Below, piece by piece: positions 1 through 38,798 of a stretch of 40,525 bases of DNA. The stretch lies in NCBI GenBank assembly GCA_003116975.1, contig BGKB01000307.1:1-40525 (forward strand), given 5' to 3'. The first letter of the stretch is position 1. The number at the start of each line of letters is the position of its first letter. The stretch comes from Aurantiochytrium sp. KH105. Lineage: Eukaryota > Sar > Bigyra > Thraustochytrida > Thraustochytriidae. Both the position numbers and the translations under genes were made by a program. The notes beneath the pieces are model-generated. The model saw nothing but the letters and a program-made list of their open reading frames with translations. It was not told the DNA's origin and did no database searches.

Positions 1-476
1 GGTTCCTCGATGGTGGCTTGCGGCTTGCGGCTGGCTTATTTCACTGTTGCAATGTCTTGCTGCCAGTATGACGAGACTGCTTCTTCACTTGCAAGTCACG
101 TTGTTCGACTTGATGCGCTGATGAGCCCTTGGAACAGCCCTATTTGGATGGAGGACGAACGGCGGGGTTCGTGGAGCCGCGACCGTGCGGAAGACGCCGC
201 AAATTGGCCAAATTTTTGCGCAAGTTTGCCCCCCGAGTAATAAATCAGTGCTAAAAACGCACTTCAGATATTTTGTCGAAGCTGATGGAGAGCGAGTGAG
301 TGAGTATAGTCCGTCCGCGTGAAACTTGGCATAGGTTTTGCTCTGTTCAACATTGGCCCCGACGATTGGTCCTCGATTTCGCTTTCCTTTCTCTTTTTTT
401 TTTCGCTCTTCATGTTTTGTCGACGAAACGAAAGATCGTGTGTAGGCCTGCCTATAGAAGCCAACGGCGTGAGCCA
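1..476. other. Left-edge intergenic/5' leader region
   Basis: I see no supportable gene here. Short frames exist on both strands but show no recognisable protein and no family resemblance. A T-rich tract around 380-400, with an 11-T run, lies before the CLU-like gene and is typical of a promoter or leader and not of coding sequence. The frame of the downstream gene stays open back to an ATG at 300, but the extra 59 residues are translated largely from this T-rich tract and are not trusted. Confidence 0.5.
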
Positions 477-29131: not shown

Positions 29132-29233
29132 CGCGCGGAGTGGGAGCTGGCAGCTTGCGAGTTCCGCGGGGCCGGGGGCTCTGGATGATCTGCCGGGAGG
29201 ATTAAAGTTTCGCCGATTGCGCCGACGCGGCGA

Positions 29234-29282
29234 TGAAGAAGAAAAGAAGAAGAAGAAGAAGAAGAAGAAGAAGAAGACGGAG
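29234..29282 (+). repeat. GAA trinucleotide array in the RlmJ-like leader
   Basis: Some twelve GAA/AAG units with one interruption near the start, then GAGATGGAGAAGG-type purines, lie 45-90 nt before the start at 29326. The upstream in-frame ATG at 29233 would translate this as a Lys/Arg run before the conserved protein. It is therefore more likely leader, although a basic N-terminal extension (a targeting signal) cannot be excluded. Confidence 0.65.
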
Positions 29283-29325
29283 ATGGAGAAGGAGAAAGCA
29301 GAATGCGTGGTCGCAGAGCGGCGGC

Positions 29326-30270
29326 ATGGTGCTCTCGTACAGACACGCGTTCCACGCGGGAAATCGCGGGGATGTCTTCAAGCATGCGGTGATGCTGGAC
29401 CTGCTGCGCGCAGAGATCGCGGCGAGAGCGAGAACGCGGGTCGTGGAGACGCACGCCGGCGCCGGGCTCTACGCGCTGCGGTCCGGCAAGGCCGACGAGC
29501 GCCGCGAGTGGGCGCAGGGCATCGGCAAGGCGTGGGACGCGTTCGCGGCAGACGTGGCCCGCAACGGCGGCCATGGCGACGACGCGGAGGCGAGGCAATC
29601 TCCTGGGCCACTCCAGGAACTCGTACGGCACGTGGCGCGCTTCAACAACTCGAAAAAACGGCAGCGACTTGACTTGTATCCGGGGTCACCGTTACTCACG
29701 TTGCAAATGCTTCGCGACCAAGACGAGGCGATCTTTTACGAGCTACACGCCTCGGACATGCCTGTGCTTCAGTGGCACTGCGCCTCGCCCGGCAGGCACG
29801 TTTTGAAAAATGGTCCAAAGATTGAGCTCGGGGACGGCCTTGCAGGCCTGCGGGCCGAGGCATCGAGGGCAGACCTTGAAGGCTGCACTCTGGCCTTCAT
29901 CGATCCCCCGTACGAGGTGAAATCAGAGTACAACGAGGTGGCGCGCTGCGTTCTCGCTTGTGCCGCTGCAAACGCCTCCATGACGATTGCTCTTTGGTAT
30001 CCGCTCATCCTGGGCATGGATCGCGCGGAAACCATGGTGCAGTCCCTTTGCGAAAGCCTCAAGACCCCTTGGGTGGACGTGCGTGAGCAAGCTCCGAATG
30101 AGGGCGCTGGTCTCGAGCGCGGCATGTGGGGCTCGGGCGTGCTGGTCGTGAACCCGGATTCCGCATGGTTGGCCCAGGCCGGACAATTCGGCGATCGCCT
30201 CGGTCGCGACGCCGCGCAGGCCTTTGGATCCGATCACGTCGTCAGGCTAACTCTCTCGCCACAACTTTGA
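29326..30270 (+). CDS. rlmJ: RlmJ-like 23S rRNA adenine-N6 methyltransferase
   Basis: Bacterial RlmJ methylates A2030 of 23S rRNA using S-adenosylmethionine. The 314-residue product follows this family from its first residues: MVLSYRHAFHAGNRGDVFKH, the SAM-binding ETHAGAG at 41-47, YPGSP at 118-122, the catalytic DPPYE at 193-197, LWYP at 223-226 and GMWGSGVLVVNP at 266-277. It is slightly longer than the ~280 residues usual in bacteria; an insert near 78-95 accounts for part of this. The ATG at 29326 (ggcATGG) is chosen because RlmJ proteins begin with this (M)LSYRH motif. In a eukaryote the target would be organellar large-subunit rRNA or a new substrate. The alternative start at 29233 adds a Lys/Arg-rich extension. 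No typical targeting peptide is obvious from 29326. Bacterial ancestry is likely (transfer or organelle-derived). Confidence 0.88.
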   Translation: MVLSYRHAFHAGNRGDVFKHAVMLDLLRAEIAARARTRVVETHAGAGLYALRSGKADERREWAQGIGKAWDAFAADVARNGGHGDDAEARQSPGPLQELVRHVARFNNSKKRQRLDLYPGSPLLTLQMLRDQDEAIFYELHASDMPVLQWHCASPGRHVLKNGPKIELGDGLAGLRAEASRADLEGCTLAFIDPPYEVKSEYNEVARCVLACAAANASMTIALWYPLILGMDRAETMVQSLCESLKTPWVDVREQAPNEGAGLERGMWGSGVLVVNPDSAWLAQAGQFGDRLGRDAAQAFGSDHVVRLTLSPQL

Positions 30271-32935: not shown

Positions 32936-33130
32936 GCCGGCCGGTCGATGCGGTTCTGGGCATCCGCCCCGCCCGCCCGCCGCGCGCCCGCTCGAGGCGC
33001 GTCGCGCTTGAGGCGGCCTTGGACCGGGGCAGCGGACTGACAGGATCCCTGACCGACCCCTCCGCCGCGTCCCGACTACCATGATACCGGTACCGTGCCA
33101 TGGTACCACCGTCTGTCTGTCTACGAGCAG

Positions 33131-33200
33131 AGCAGAGCGGAGCAGAGCGGAGCAGAGCGGAGCAGAGCGGAGCAGAGCGGAGCAGAGCGGAGCAGAGCGG
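33131..33200. repeat. Seven perfect AGCAGAGCGG decamers
   Basis: The decamer AGCAGAGCGG is repeated seven times without a mismatch, preceded by partial AGCAG units. It lies about 290-360 nt upstream of the ACAD11-like start, which reads on the minus strand. The perfect identity indicates recent expansion. The array has no spacers and is not a CRISPR. Confidence 0.85.
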
Positions 33201-34330
33201 AGGCCGCCGGCGTCGTGTGCAGCGAGCGCGCGCGCGTGCGCATGCGCGTGCGGCGAGGGCGAGTCGGGGAAGAGCAACGGACGGGGAGATGAGATGGCGG
33301 GCGACCAAGCGCAGCAGAGCCGTGGTCCATCGCTGCTGCTGCAGCCGCCGGTAGCAACACAGCTGCAGTGCAAGGATGGCTCTGCTCTGCAAGGCGGAGG
33401 TGACAGGCAGCGTCTTGGAGCGAGTCTGGCAGCTTGCGCAGCCGAGGGATGATGGATCCTGGGCCGACTCGGCTCCCCGACGAAGCAACGCAATATTCCA
33501 CTGCGCGTCCTCGGTCATGGTGGTCGGGGTGGCATCGGCCGGCGAGGCGGCGCACGTGGAAGATACAGCCCAGGCGAGGTGTGCCCGAACGACAGAACTC
33601 GTGTCCGACGGCTCCAACTTGCATGTTCCGGGTCTAGCCGACCTGCCAGGGACTGCGATGCGATGTATCAAAGAGGGGAAGATGCACGCAGCTGTAAACA
33701 GATGCGCTCACGACAGAATCCGAGCAAGTGCGAGGCGAGTGCGGGGCGACGCAGCAGAGGGGGGAGATGCACGCAGTTGCGCGCAGATAGGACATGGTTT
33801 TGGGGGTAACGCTTTTCTCTAAGACCGCAACAGATGATGGCGCGTCAAGTCCGACATCCTCGTTCTCTTGCTGTTTGACCACTTTTGCGGTCATGACCCG
33901 AAAAAAAAAACAATGGCGAAACGCTCGCTCCAGCGGAATCACGAGGTCTTGCCCGATTCGGCGCCGCCGAACAAAGCAAGTCATAAATGAAGAAGATGCA
34001 GCTGAAAGAGAATTTGATCCAAGAAAAGTCCTCCATGGCAACCCCTTTGCACACGACAACCCTTTGTTCAATGGTCTTCCAGGGTGAATTTTTAAAAATG
34101 TTGCTACCGGCATGCGGCTCGCGTAAAGGGCTCTTGTGGTATGGACATGACTCACATACTATCCGAGATGTTGGCTCGAAGTGCTTGAGGTGGGCTCTTC
34201 TGCAATTGTAGTCACGCCATCGGTGATTTGTGCCGCCGCAGCCTTCGTCATCTGGCTTGCGGGGGCAAACAAAGCTTCGTAGAATGGACCACCTTCGATC
34301 TATCACAGCTTTATAAAACAATATGTTTTG

Positions 34331-34355
34331 TTTTGTTGCGGCGTGTGCAACAAAA
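34331..34355. other. Inverted repeat downstream of the NLR gene
   Basis: TTTTGTTGC (34331-34339) and its exact reverse complement GCAACAAAA (34347-34355) flank a 7-nt loop. It lies about 130-155 nt past the NLR stop codon, in the expected 3' UTR or just beyond it. A 3' end processing or stability hairpin is possible; chance in AT-rich sequence is also possible. It is not called a bacterial-type terminator because the context is eukaryotic. Confidence 0.35.
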
Positions 34356-34487
34356 AAGACCGAGGGCAGAAAAGAAAAGCAAATGTTGAAAAGTGAGATA
34401 TTACCACTGCGTCGCAGTAAGTGATCGCAAGCAGTTAAGGTCGGTCGCCCACGCAGGCATGGCACACGGTAGCGCGAAGCCAGATGA

Positions 34488-37400
34488 TTAGGTCTCAGGT
34501 TCGATTCCTTGGACATGCAAGATGTGTACCATCCCGCTATTGTCGACAATAGCGTGAAGACTTCCCTGACGAGCTGTGTCAAAGATTGTGTGATCCGTCG
34601 TGAAGCCTATACCTCCGCTTAACTTTACATGCGTTCCATTCTCAACGTTCACCAAAGTGTTTGTCTCAGGTGTAGTCGAGGCCTCCGCTTCATCCGCGTC
34701 GAGTGCCTCGCCCGTTCGAGCGTTCCAGTAGTGAGTATCGTGACGAAAATTGTGACGAATAGTAGCATCCCAAGACGTTGATATAATGGTGTTGCCCTGT
34801 ATCGCCACGCTCCAGAACTCACCAGACATATGCCTCTTCAACACGTGATGCTCCTCGCACGACGTAGCGTTCCAGATGCGCACCGTCTTGTCCCTGGATC
34901 CACTGACGATGGTGTCGCCCTGTATCGCCACGCTTTTGATGTGATCAGAGTGCCCCTTCAACACGTGCTGTTCCTCACCCGACGTAGCGTTCCAGATGCG
35001 CACCGTGCTGTCATCGAACCAGAACCACTCACCGGACCCACTGACAATGGTGTCGCCCTGTATCGCCACGCTGTAGACCGGACCAGAGTGCCCCTTCAAC
35101 ACGTGCTGCTCCTCGCCCGACGTAGCGTTCCAGATGCGCACCGTCTTGTCCCCGGACCCACTGACGATGGTGTCGCCCTGAATTGCCACGCTGTAGATCG
35201 GACCGGAGTGCCCATTCAACACGTGCTGCTCCTCGCCCGACGTAGCGTTCCAGATGCGCACCGTGTTGTCATCGGACCAGAACGACCTACCGGACCCACT
35301 GACGATGGTGTCGCCCTGTATCGCCACGCTGTAGACCGGATCAGAGTGCTCCTTCAACACGTGCTGCTCCTCGCCCGTTGTAGCGTTCCAGATGCGCACA
35401 GTGTTGTCCTCGGACCAGAACGACTCACCGGACCCACTGACGATGGTGTCGCCCTGTATCGCCACGCTGTAGACCGGACCAGAGTGCCCCTTCAACACGT
35501 GCTGCTCCTCGCCCGACGTAGCGTTCCAGATGCGCACCGTCTTGTCCAAGGACCAGAACGACTCACCGGACCCACTGATGATGGTGTCGCCCTGTATCGC
35601 CACGCTGTAGACCGGACCAGAGTGCCCCTTCAACACGTGCTGCTCCTCGCCCGACGTAGCGTTCCAGATGCGCACCGTGCCGTCATCGGACCCACTGACG
35701 ATGGTGTCGCCAAGTATCGCTACGCTTCTGACCCTACCAGAGTGACCCTTCAACACATGCAGCAAGGGGTCGCGGGGATGAGCAAGGGTGACGCGAGTAG
35801 GCTCAAGCCATGGCTGATCAGGTGTTCGTAGACTCCGTGCCAAGGGATCTTCCGAGTCGTGACCAAAACGCGCCAAAACTTGCGATGCAAGTTCGTTGGG
35901 ATCGTAGCTGAGGGCATGTACTGCTTTGCTCAGAAAGCGGGGCGTATCACTTTCGGGCGCAAAGTAGATGCCGAGTTCGACGCAGTCGCGAATGAGGTTT
36001 CCGATTGTGGCACGCCTTTGCGCTTCATCGGCACCGAGAGAGATGGCGCTCTGTACCCATGCAAAGTCATTCAGGAGCTCGAAAGCCGCAGCGTGCTCGC
36101 CGCTCTTGACGAGGTGAAAGACGGCGTGGCGGAGCGAAAAAACGTCGTTTCGCGAGCTGCTGCAGTAGTCAGCCAAGGCAATATGGCCATCTTCAACATC
36201 CACGCCAAGATTTCCGTTCAGGTCGTCATCCAGCAGCCAGTCTGCCATCCGCTTGTGAATGAGCGCCACGCGACCATCGCCGCCTCGATATAAGAGATTG
36301 CTCGCGTCGTCGACAATATCATCCATATCATCTTGATCTAATTGCAGAACTGCGCTTAGTTGCTCGACACTCAGCGGTTCACGAGCCGCTACGATTGGCG
36401 CCAGGAGCATCTTGTACCTCTTCTCCCCGCCAAATTTTTCTTGCAGGCGCTCAAAGTACTCTTTGAACATGCCGCCAAGTCCATTGGGAATGGCGTCTTT
36501 GTGAGAGATGTCCTGCAAGGTCAGCAGACCACCTTGTTTCTCCTCGTGCGTCCGGTTCAGGATCTCGGGAAGGAAGCTCGCCCAGAGAAAGAGACCTTCG
36601 GATCGTTCGGAAAGAATTTTGGCGCAAGAAGCAACGTCTTTCTGCTCCACGGTATCTTTCATGTCGCACAGCAAATGCTCGATGTGCTTTTCGATGTCGC
36701 GAAAGTTCTGTTCGCCCTTGAGCTCCAGCACTTTAGAATCAAGGCTGTTGTTGGTGATGTCGCGCTGGATCTCGCCTTCGGGCCGCGTGCTCACCACCAA
36801 GACGAGCCATGAGGGCATCACATCCTTCCACGTACGAATGACCTTTCGCAAAACATCGTCGCTTCTGCTGCACTCGTCGAGAGCGTCGAGCGCGACCACT
36901 TGTCGCATCTGGTCTCCGCGGAGCTTGTTCAAAGGATCGACAAGAATGGTTTGGAACACGTCGGCCAAAGGCTTGTCGCGGATACCGCCAAAGCTCTCGG
37001 GGTCCAGCGCATCGGCAAAGTCAGGCACGCTCAGGCAGAGCTGCCATGCAATGCTCACGAGAGCCTCTTTCGGCGCAGCGGTCGTGACTTGATCATGCCG
37101 AAAGAAATGATACGCCACAACAAAAATAGGCTGGCGCTCTTTCTTACTACGGCGCCACAAGCTACGTACACGTGACGACTTTCGGCGCGGCTCGGCGCGT
37201 TCATCAGCCTTGCTCTTTTCGACATCTTCGTCAGTTTTCAGAGCGCCTCCACGGTGACAAAGCTCGGCCATGATGACGCTTTTGCCGACGCCGCCGTCGC
37301 CCACAAGAATGAAGACGGCACTCTGTTCCTCGTTGTACCAGTCGCAAAGCTGGTCGATGATCCAGCTCCGCGTGCCGAGGATAAAGCTCTCCGTCTTACC

Positions 37401-38798
37401 CTTGGCCCATGCCTCTGAGCTGCAGGGGTTCAAGCTTGCTTTCAAATCACGGAGCCTGCGTGTGAAACCAGACGAAGCCCCGGGCGTATCGATGCGCGTC
37501 TGAATGGCATTTGCGAGGCAATCAATAGCCTTGTCTGAGAGTTCCGTGAGGTCCACGGGTTTTTGCCCCTCGAGGCCGAGTTGGAATTGCCCAGTCCATC
37601 CCGTTGCGGGTTTTGTCATGGCGGGTTCAAGCGCAGCGACCACGATGCGGTCGGCGTTTCGCTTGCCGGCGTATTCAAACTCCTTGAGACAGTTGCCCAA
37701 CCTATCGCCTTTATTGATTTTTTCCATGTACCTTTTGGTCGCGAGAATGAGGAACACCTTCGATTTTTTTATGCCCTTTGCCATACTCATGTCAGTGCTT
37801 CCAGACATCTCATTGTCATCGAGCCACGCTTTGAAACCTCTGTCACGCAATTTCTGAGCAATTTCAATGGCTTTATCATGAACGCTCCACTCATGCGAAA
37901 CGAAGAAGTGAAACTCCTTGCTATCCAAAGCTGGCGAAACACGAACTCGGGTGGCAAGGACTTGAGCCATGATTGCACCAATGTTAGCATTGTCGGGATC
38001 GCAGAAATCAACATAGAGTAGATTGGGCATGTACCACGCAATCGCGCCTTTCCAGTCCTTTTGTTCATACATTGTATCGTCGATGAGGATGGGTACAAGC
38101 GCGTTCGGGAGAACCCTCGCCACTGCCTCAACGAGCTTCCAGTTGCCTTGGAGTGCCATACTCACGAGCAGAAGAGCGACCGAGGCATTCTCGACCTCCT
38201 CTTTTGCCTCAGCGGCATTGCTCGCGATGCGCACGGGCACGCTGAGGCGAGGCTGGATTGCGTCGATTAGCTGCTCGGCCACGGTCTCGTTAGCGGGATC
38301 GTGTACGACGAGGACGGCNTAGAGTAGATTGGGCATGTACCACGCAATCGCGCCTTTCCAGTCCTTTTGTTCATACATTGTATCGTCGATGAGGATGGGT
38401 ACAAGCGCGTTCGGGAGAACCCTCGCCACTGCCTCAACGAGCTTCCAGTTGCCTTGGAGTGCCATACTCACGAGCAGAAGAGCGACCGAGGCATTCTCGA
38501 CCTCCTCTTTTGCCTCAGCGGCATTGCTCGCGATGCGCACGGGCACGCTGAGGCGAGGCTGGATTGCGTCGATTAGCTGCTCGGCCACGGTCTCGTTAGC
38601 GGGATCGTGTACGACGAGGACGGCGACGTTGGCGAGCACCTCAGGGGGTGCGAGAAGCGCCCTTGCCAGCTCAGACTCGGCAGGGTGGAGCTCTGCCTCC
38701 GCCTGCGCGGCATCGTTCACCTCACGCTCGACGCTTGATCCTTCGTTCTCCTGTCCTGTGCCGAGGAAGGCGTAGATGTTTTTTCTTAATCTTTCCAT
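34488..38798 (-). CDS. TIR-TIR-NACHT-WD40 STAND protein (NLR-like receptor), assembly-damaged
   Basis: As assembled, 1436 residues with one undetermined residue (160). Domains in order (assembled numbering): a TIR-like module (~161-288) with VALLLVS and W-x3-E (W220, E224); a second, clearer TIR (~294-425) with FFVSHEWS, DRGFKAWLDD, VFLILATKRY and E373 in CLKEFEYA, the NADase glutamate position; then NACHT. NACHT has Walker A GDGGVGKS (500-507), HFFRHD (564-569), Walker B ALDALDEC (636-643) and VSTRPEGE (669-676). A winged-helix part follows (LIHKRMADWLLDDD, ~846-859), then eight WD40 repeats (1014-1366) that are almost identical, and a short tail. Such STAND proteins sense a ligand through the repeats, oligomerise on nucleotide exchange and fire the N-terminal effector. 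Residues 57-159 duplicate 161-261 because of the gap at 38319; the real length is probably ~1334. The start has strong context (accATGG). No intron is needed. Ligand and in vivo role are unknown. Confidence 0.9.
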   Translation of the reverse strand: MERLRKNIYAFLGTGQENEGSSVEREVNDAAQAEAELHPAESELARALLAPPEVLANVAVLVVHDPANETVAEQLIDAIQPRLSVPVRIASNAAEAKEEVENASVALLLVSMALQGNWKLVEAVARVLPNALVPILIDDTMYEQKDWKGAIAWYMPNLLXAVLVVHDPANETVAEQLIDAIQPRLSVPVRIASNAAEAKEEVENASVALLLVSMALQGNWKLVEAVARVLPNALVPILIDDTMYEQKDWKGAIAWYMPNLLYVDFCDPDNANIGAIMAQVLATRVRVSPALDSKEFHFFVSHEWSVHDKAIEIAQKLRDRGFKAWLDDNEMSGSTDMSMAKGIKKSKVFLILATKRYMEKINKGDRLGNCLKEFEYAGKRNADRIVVAALEPAMTKPATGWTGQFQLGLEGQKPVDLTELSDKAIDCLANAIQTRIDTPGASSGFTRRLRDLKASLNPCSSEAWAKGKTESFILGTRSWIIDQLCDWYNEEQSAVFILVGDGGVGKSVIMAELCHRGGALKTDEDVEKSKADERAEPRRKSSRVRSLWRRSKKERQPIFVVAYHFFRHDQVTTAAPKEALVSIAWQLCLSVPDFADALDPESFGGIRDKPLADVFQTILVDPLNKLRGDQMRQVVALDALDECSRSDDVLRKVIRTWKDVMPSWLVLVVSTRPEGEIQRDITNNSLDSKVLELKGEQNFRDIEKHIEHLLCDMKDTVEQKDVASCAKILSERSEGLFLWASFLPEILNRTHEEKQGGLLTLQDISHKDAIPNGLGGMFKEYFERLQEKFGGEKRYKMLLAPIVAAREPLSVEQLSAVLQLDQDDMDDIVDDASNLLYRGGDGRVALIHKRMADWLLDDDLNGNLGVDVEDGHIALADYCSSSRNDVFSLRHAVFHLVKSGEHAAAFELLNDFAWVQSAISLGADEAQRRATIGNLIRDCVELGIYFAPESDTPRFLSKAVHALSYDPNELASQVLARFGHDSEDPLARSLRTPDQPWLEPTRVTLAHPRDPLLHVLKGHSGRVRSVAILGDTIVSGSDDGTVRIWNATSGEEQHVLKGHSGPVYSVAIQGDTIISGSGESFWSLDKTVRIWNATSGEEQHVLKGHSGPVYSVAIQGDTIVSGSGESFWSEDNTVRIWNATTGEEQHVLKEHSDPVYSVAIQGDTIVSGSGRSFWSDDNTVRIWNATSGEEQHVLNGHSGPIYSVAIQGDTIVSGSGDKTVRIWNATSGEEQHVLKGHSGPVYSVAIQGDTIVSGSGEWFWFDDSTVRIWNATSGEEQHVLKGHSDHIKSVAIQGDTIVSGSRDKTVRIWNATSCEEHHVLKRHMSGEFWSVAIQGNTIISTSWDATIRHNFRHDTHYWNARTGEALDADEAEASTTPETNTLVNVENGTHVKLSGGIGFTTDHTIFDTARQGSLHAIVDNSGMVHILHVQGIEPET
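34701..35759 (-). repeat. Eight tandem WD40 units, 120 or 138 bp, near-identical
   Basis: In the gene's sense eight units run in series. Units 1, 5 and 7 have 40 codons, units 2, 3, 4 and 6 have 46, and unit 8 is divergent. Most codons agree exactly, including synonymous sites; stretches such as GCGTTCCAGATGCGCACC recur unchanged on the plus strand. Differences concentrate in the residues after HVLKGHS (GPVY, GRVR, DPVY, GPIY, DHIK), in the SGS-x-x loop, and in an exactly 18-bp optional cassette (for example ESFWSE, RSFWSD, EWFWFD). This means recent amplification or gene conversion, as in fungal NLR repeat domains. Confidence 0.9.
38014..38624. repeat. Identical 305-bp direct copies flanking a single N
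   Basis: Positions 38014-38318 and 38320-38624 are identical as far as I can compare by eye, and exactly one N (38319) lies between them. The offset of 306 bp keeps the reading frame, so the duplication is silent in an ORF scan. This is what a scaffolder leaves when two contig ends that overlap are joined by a gap without merging. A true tandem duplication is possible but much less likely. Confidence 0.9.
38319..38319. other. Assembly gap (single N)
   Basis: The only ambiguous base seen in the window. It sits exactly at the junction of two identical 305-bp copies inside the NLR-like gene and makes residue 160 of its translation unknown. Confidence 0.97.

Follow-up and report, generated by a model that had tools for sequence, protein, structure and literature searches.

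Apaf-1, the plant TIR-NLR RPP1 and the fungal HET-E protein represent established receptor families in which a ligand triggers a molecular switch. Apaf-1 possesses two fixed propellers, and HET-E and HET-D in Podospora detect foreign conspecific cells. In the WD40 units of Podospora, codons 7, 9, 25 and 27 are reported to be under strong positive selection (Paoletti et al., 2007; PMC1805685), and the same report describes them as pairs flanking the conserved codons 8 and 26, located in the d-a loop and a b-turn at the top of the propeller. Large NLR repertoires are described from plants, animals and filamentous fungi, and a survey of fungal NLRs, which detected none in yeasts, relates their occurrence to multicellularity (PMC4986451).

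We analyzed a stretch of 40,525 nucleotides from Aurantiochytrium sp. KH105 (contig BGKB01000307.1), referred to here as the window, which carries a gene with the corresponding order of an N-terminal effector domain, a STAND NTPase with Walker A and B motifs and a winged helix, and C-terminal repeats (Table 1). The placement of NACHT ahead of WD40 is that of the fungal HNWD proteins. The initial annotation had described TIR, NACHT and WD40 in one open frame, with a complete NACHT switch and eight WD40 units; profile searches bear this out at high significance for the TIR domain (Pfam E 8e-16) and the NTPase (Pfam NPHP3_N, E 1.6e-16), both Walker motifs were located, and structure prediction models the array as an eight-bladed propeller. 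For the N-terminal domain, a cryptic-TIR-like fold is predicted; it is probably a non-catalytic adaptor or regulator. The predicted folds resemble the SARM1 TIR and STAND proteins, and the first Foldseek matches were RPP1, Avs3 and Apaf-1, with TM-scores (0.15-0.31 by query) that are low because the placement of the domains is uncertain.

Prediction and motif agree on a TIR fold with a conserved glutamate, and the C-x-x-E-F motif is present in 23 of the 23 family genes that we compared; this count settles the glutamate, since strict motif patterns overlook two TIR glutamate motifs as well as two Walker B motifs. We take the glutamate of CLKEF to be the catalytic residue, as in SARM1 and plant TIRs. 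The P-loop is likewise kept across the compared genes, with one GDGD and one GDGGI as variants. A HET domain was not among the six Pfam families matched at E up to 0.01 by residues 161-1000, and neither NB-ARC nor LRR occurred among these six or among the 25 listed of the 41 Pfam matches to the window protein. A sequence search of the PDB with the TIR-NACHT part gave no match at E up to 0.01, and PADLOC returned weak partial matches alone (Avs1b, 3.6e-7; PDC-S66; bSEFIR).

Table 1. Features of the receptor gene and its 3' flank, in window coordinates.
Feature	Position	Strand	Remarks
Open frame TIR-like/TIR/NACHT/winged helix/WD40	34488..38798	-	1436 codons, with the doubled stretch counted
Extra exact copy of part of the N-terminal domain	38320..38624	-	First copy in the protein; likely assembly overlap
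Single N joining the two N-domain copies	38319..38319	.	
N-terminal cryptic-TIR-like domain	37944..38318	-	Residues 161-285
TIR domain	37500..37916	-	Residues 295-433
Presumed catalytic glutamate of the TIR	37680..37682	-	E of CLKEF, residue 373
NACHT-type STAND NTPase core	36789..37376	-	Residues 475-670
Walker A, GDGGVGKS	37278..37301	-	
Walker B, ALDALDEC	36870..36893	-	
Winged helix	36105..36413	-	Residues 796-898; Pfam HTH_TANC1, E 2.7e-7
WD40 array, modelled as an eight-bladed propeller; hypervariable positions in predicted loops	34746..35747	-	
3' flank common to many sister genes	34182..34480	.	Mostly 73-90% identity; the duplicated unit includes it

The observation of the initial annotation is thus confirmed in part: a predicted cryptic-TIR-like domain and a TIR stand in tandem, and the doubling of the N-terminal domain is almost certainly an assembly joint. 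The extra copy is an exact 305-bp match to positions 38014-38318, and no such exact copy is found in 22 sister genes. A single N is by itself no mark of an overlap because, among the five internal N runs that we compared (window, L061, L062, L013 and L050), those of L062 and L013 are also one N long, and overlapping flanks occur solely at the one in the window. The second copy is almost certainly an assembly overlap, and a genuine exact tandem duplication is unlikely given the exact match at a single N and its absence from the sister genes. One sister gene, L060 (on C9), carries two diverged N-terminal TIR-like domains in tandem ahead of its TIR.

The initial annotation viewed the gene as a lone accessory locus. 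This view is not supported: when the TIR-to-linker region of the protein was searched against the assembly (76 Mb, 367 contigs), 67 protein matches were obtained that merge into 61 places on 54 contigs. In the pairs C21/C68, C51/C123 and C59/C88, a single locus is probably represented by both of its haplotypes, and C36/C363, C121/C20 and C2/C262 are perhaps of the same kind; the haploid number is therefore lower than 61, and we estimate it at about 50-55. For window positions 1-34180, no second haplotype was present in the assembly apart from short repeats. From the 60 other places we took 22 sister genes, mostly full-length, which together with the window gene form the set of 23 used for comparison. 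Among the places on contigs of at least 100 kb, 23 of 43 fall within 20 kb of a contig end where 5.0 would be expected (58 of the 61 places were entered; C32, C121 and C317 were left out). We do not claim subtelomeric clustering from this count, as assemblies tend to break at repeats too and a search for (TTAGGG)4 gave no match.

The genome and the window hold several further elements of note. Besides the receptor family, there is a further large TIR repertoire: at least 150 TIR_2 matches exceed the cut-off (150 were scored of 258 candidates), and 120 of these 150 lie outside the receptor family. Four of those scanned, loci of about 3.3 kb each, are COR/Roc-COR-TIR genes (L020 and L036) and ankyrin-TIR genes (L023 and L041); when hypervariable repeats were looked for in ankyrin-TIR genes, four loci yielded a small number of units, all of them ordinary. 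Window positions 1-275 are a dispersed repeat at the contig start that recurs at about 30 other places in the assembly, with copies near sister receptors (C24:9778, C72:252316, C34:401297 and C212:44549), and positions 33125-33202 hold 7.8 copies of a 10-bp tandem repeat that is found on many contigs at 89-100% identity. The frame at 29233-30270 on the plus strand of this eukaryotic contig resembles what we take to be a bacterial-type 23S rRNA methyltransferase, RlmJ. The genes L001 and L003 (with the near-copies L002 and L004) encode DUF4062-NACHT proteins, that of L003 with TPR; DUF4062 is described as a TIR-like NADase (PMC13174449).

Of the 31 matches to the window protein, all 11 with at least 58% identity (58-79%) derive from Hondaea fermentalgiana, likewise a thraustochytrid stramenopile, and two further proteins follow at 38% and 35%. 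No close orthologue of the window gene was seen among the Hondaea matches, many of which are partial records; with records this fragmentary, we do not take the gene to be missing from Hondaea. Some of the Hondaea records match sister genes at 98-99.8%, and their seemingly automatic names (e.g., 'Vegetative incompatibility protein HET-E-1' or 'Guanine nucleotide-binding protein subunit beta...') refer to the same family. The Hondaea protein P0003 agrees with that of C123 at 1399 of 1402 residues, a comparison that takes in the WD40 array, P0009 with C21 in 854 of 870 columns and P0008 with C70 in 894 of 910; the assembly therefore stems from the same species as Hondaea or from a sister species. 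In a NACHT tree with many long branches, our 23 genes group with 11 from Hondaea in a single clade (support 100/99), where the two sets are interleaved. This interleaving suggests that much of the family expansion is older than the split from Hondaea. Relatives beyond the thraustochytrids are named among the matches listed (at least 7985 candidates) from corals, fungi and one dinoflagellate record. The proteins P0154 and P0035, filed under the dinoflagellate Durusdinium trenchii, resemble the receptor family (33%) and the ACAD11-type gene neighboring the window gene (63%); either the genes are common to both lineages or the dinoflagellate assembly contains foreign DNA.

That contamination or misassembly accounts for the gene or its arrays is hardly credible, although the exact 305-bp doubling at one N is almost certainly an assembly artefact and N gaps interrupt the arrays of two sister loci (L050, 973; L061, 240). 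Sister genes reside on contigs of up to 1.14 Mb, the independently deposited Hondaea P0003 reproduces its counterpart together with the array, and the neighboring ACAD11-type gene is eukaryotic (without a Hondaea match among 120 listed of 539). The long contigs, the Hondaea orthologues of sister genes and the eukaryotic neighbor rule out a bacterial origin.

The WD40 units of the family follow the consensus GHSxxVxSVAIQGDTIVSGSxDxTVRIWNATSGEEQHVLK. Across 202 uninterrupted 40-residue units from 23 genes, positions 5, 21, 7, 4 and 23 showed the highest entropies (3.75, 3.51, 3.47, 2.73 and 2.66 bits), with the next position at 1.95 bits. Aligned at the conserved V and D, the fungal codons 7, 9, 25 and 27 (PMC1805685) correspond to positions 5, 7, 21 and 23 of the thraustochytrid unit. 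A pattern search, which overlooks irregular units and hence differs in its counts from the 40-residue scan, found 179 different combinations at the variable positions of 204 units. By the strand limits of the first unit in the predicted propeller, positions 4 and 5 fall into the d-a loop, position 7 starts strand a, and positions 21 and 23 lie in the b-c turn, so that the model would gather the hypervariable codons on a single face of the propeller, in its loops. Insertions occur directly ahead of the D in the b-c turn: one of 6 residues in four window-gene units, and one of 5 residues in seven units spread over four other genes (C61, C72, C70 and C142). The plainest case is C61, whose four units are identical at the other 35 positions and differ at about four in five of the variable ones; the window gene's own array is less diverse than most. 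In 54 Hondaea units, positions 5, 21 and 7 lead as well, with positions 31 and 40 preceding 23 and position 4 in eighth place. C2 and C262 show a strong excess, with differences at 44 of 70 variable positions, at 118 of 490 other WD40 positions and at 87 of 908 positions before the array. In two allelic-looking pairs, less distant than C2/C262, the five positions do not clearly stand out (3/65 and 2/55, compared with 11/455 and 22/385 elsewhere).

In 14 'young' genes, defined by low silent divergence in a grouping made after the entropy result was known, units of the same gene differ in replacement sites by 0.55 at the five codons and by 0.05 at the other 35, where the silent difference amounts to 0.11; the rest of the unit is nearly constant, at silent sites too. 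Dividing the replacement difference of the five codons by the silent difference elsewhere gave a ratio of 5.15 in these genes (gene bootstrap 3.87-7.36), and of 4.95 (3.78-6.70) when the calculation was restricted to the four positions already reported from fungi, so that the young genes show the excess at the fungal-type codons flanking V and D. For the five codons, the ratio was 1.48 (1.21-2.05) in all 23 genes and 1.08 (0.95-1.21) in the nine older ones, whose silent sites have diverged too far to be informative. Were the 40 positions equivalent, the four named positions would be found among the top five with a chance of 36/658008; the comparison with silent sites is the stronger argument because WD40 positions are unequal, these being exposed. 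The four-fold silent difference was 0.167 within and 0.183 between core genes, which fits exchange between genes and recent duplication equally.

Silent difference is also raised inside the five codons (0.45 versus 0.11), and pN/pS there was 1.22 (1.04-1.49) for the young set, compared with 0.99 (0.90-1.12) when all genes are included. We read the raised silent difference as a product of old, maintained unit variants together with path-counting error. These silent changes, along with the sharp fall of the differences at the codon next to a variable one, would also be expected if a local mutation process such as targeted hypermutation or templated change made the variable codons, with selection being secondary. 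Such a process appears very improbable to us: path counting at multiply changed codons overstates silent change, the putative alleles have changed little of late, and there is no single-base spectrum, since all bases occur with biases that vary by position. Adenine-directed hypermutation in particular was rejected as the base spectrum at the variable codons is not adenine-only.

Duplication, local or dispersed, and repeat instability might also multiply the family and let it drift without any role in recognition; flanks common to sister genes, the many places at contig ends and visibly broken copies would fit. The latter include C35 and C219, which carry stops, and other places are in pieces or cut by contig ends. 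Nevertheless, we consider drift improbable since 47 of the 61 places are open across nearly the whole compared region of about 700 codons, the NACHT codons have a median dN/dS of 0.21 over 251 pairs, and change is confined to five codons of the unit, a selection pattern that already disfavors it. The NACHT region is under purifying selection.

The view of an NLR/STAND-type receptor in a stramenopile, a candidate for non-self recognition, gains from the sister family, the maintained TIR glutamate and P-loop, the constrained NACHT region and the hypervariable loop codons. We consider it probable that the gene is one member of a repertoire of TIR-NACHT-WD40 receptors for non-self, specific to this lineage and similar to the fungal allorecognition NLRs. 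Such receptors would sense a non-self or modified self target through the WD40 propeller as the ligand-binding face, whose five variable positions per blade may owe their diversity to selection together with the exchange of repeat units. The propeller would keep the NTPase closed until a ligand binds the variable face; the NACHT/winged-helix module would then switch from the closed to an assembled state, in the manner of Apaf-1 and the RPP1 resistosome. The TIR domains, now clustered, would cleave NAD+, so that the infected (or fused) cell is arrested or dies. We infer ligand binding, assembly, NADase activity and cell death by analogy with Apaf-1, RPP1 and HET-E; the trigger may be viral or bacterial, or else a conspecific cell recognized as foreign.

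With the same machine and another trigger, the receptors might serve allorecognition instead of immunity: they would detect foreign conspecific cells, and the repertoire would police cell fusion or mixing. The architecture class and the variable WD40 positions are shared with the fungal NWD genes; yet variable receptor faces suit pathogen sensing equally, the putative alleles look similar although allorecognition loci are expected to be polymorphic, and we know of no cell fusion in the thraustochytrid host, which counts against this role. We therefore regard it as unlikely, if far from implausible.

Returning to non-self receptors at large, we tentatively propose, as a reading that falls short of probable, a combinatorial recognition by some 50-60 receptors whose faces of five variable codons per blade are reshuffled between genes, and which evolved to the same design independently of the fungal allorecognition NLRs, with a TIR NADase as executioner. 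If true, a single-celled stramenopile would possess an NLR repertoire that is both large and diversified. Receptors of the NLR/STAND kind are known already, as are hypervariable WD40 units in fungi; new, as far as we found, are the effector part of TIR and cryptic-TIR-like domains, the family size and the host. We found no description of a thraustochytrid receptor repertoire in the open-licence literature, a scope outside which most subscription papers fall. A repertoire of such size and variability in a unicellular stramenopile directly tests the link between NLRs and multicellularity, and since thraustochytrids grow in culture, receptor function is testable.

Among the described systems, the SARM1 TIR NADase shares 13% sequence identity with the TIR of the window. 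Apaf-1, the third and fourth Foldseek match, likewise joins a STAND NTPase to a WD40 propeller but carries a CARD in place of the TIR and is not known to have hypervariable units. The plant TIR-NLRs (RPP1, the first Foldseek match, and RUN1) share the TIR followed by a STAND NTPase, whereas the thraustochytrid proteins have NACHT/NPHP3_N for the plant NB-ARC and WD40 for the LRR. The fungal NWD/HNWD proteins (HET-E, HET-D and HET-R of Podospora) combine NACHT with an array of near-identical WD40 units as well; the thraustochytrid family differs from HNWD by TIR-like and TIR domains where fungi have HET, by the extra variable position 4, by its stramenopile host and by its size, with about 61 places compared to 10 reported for Podospora (PMC1805685). 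Fungal WD40 positions in company with a different effector would mean either convergence on one recognition surface or a very old shared design.
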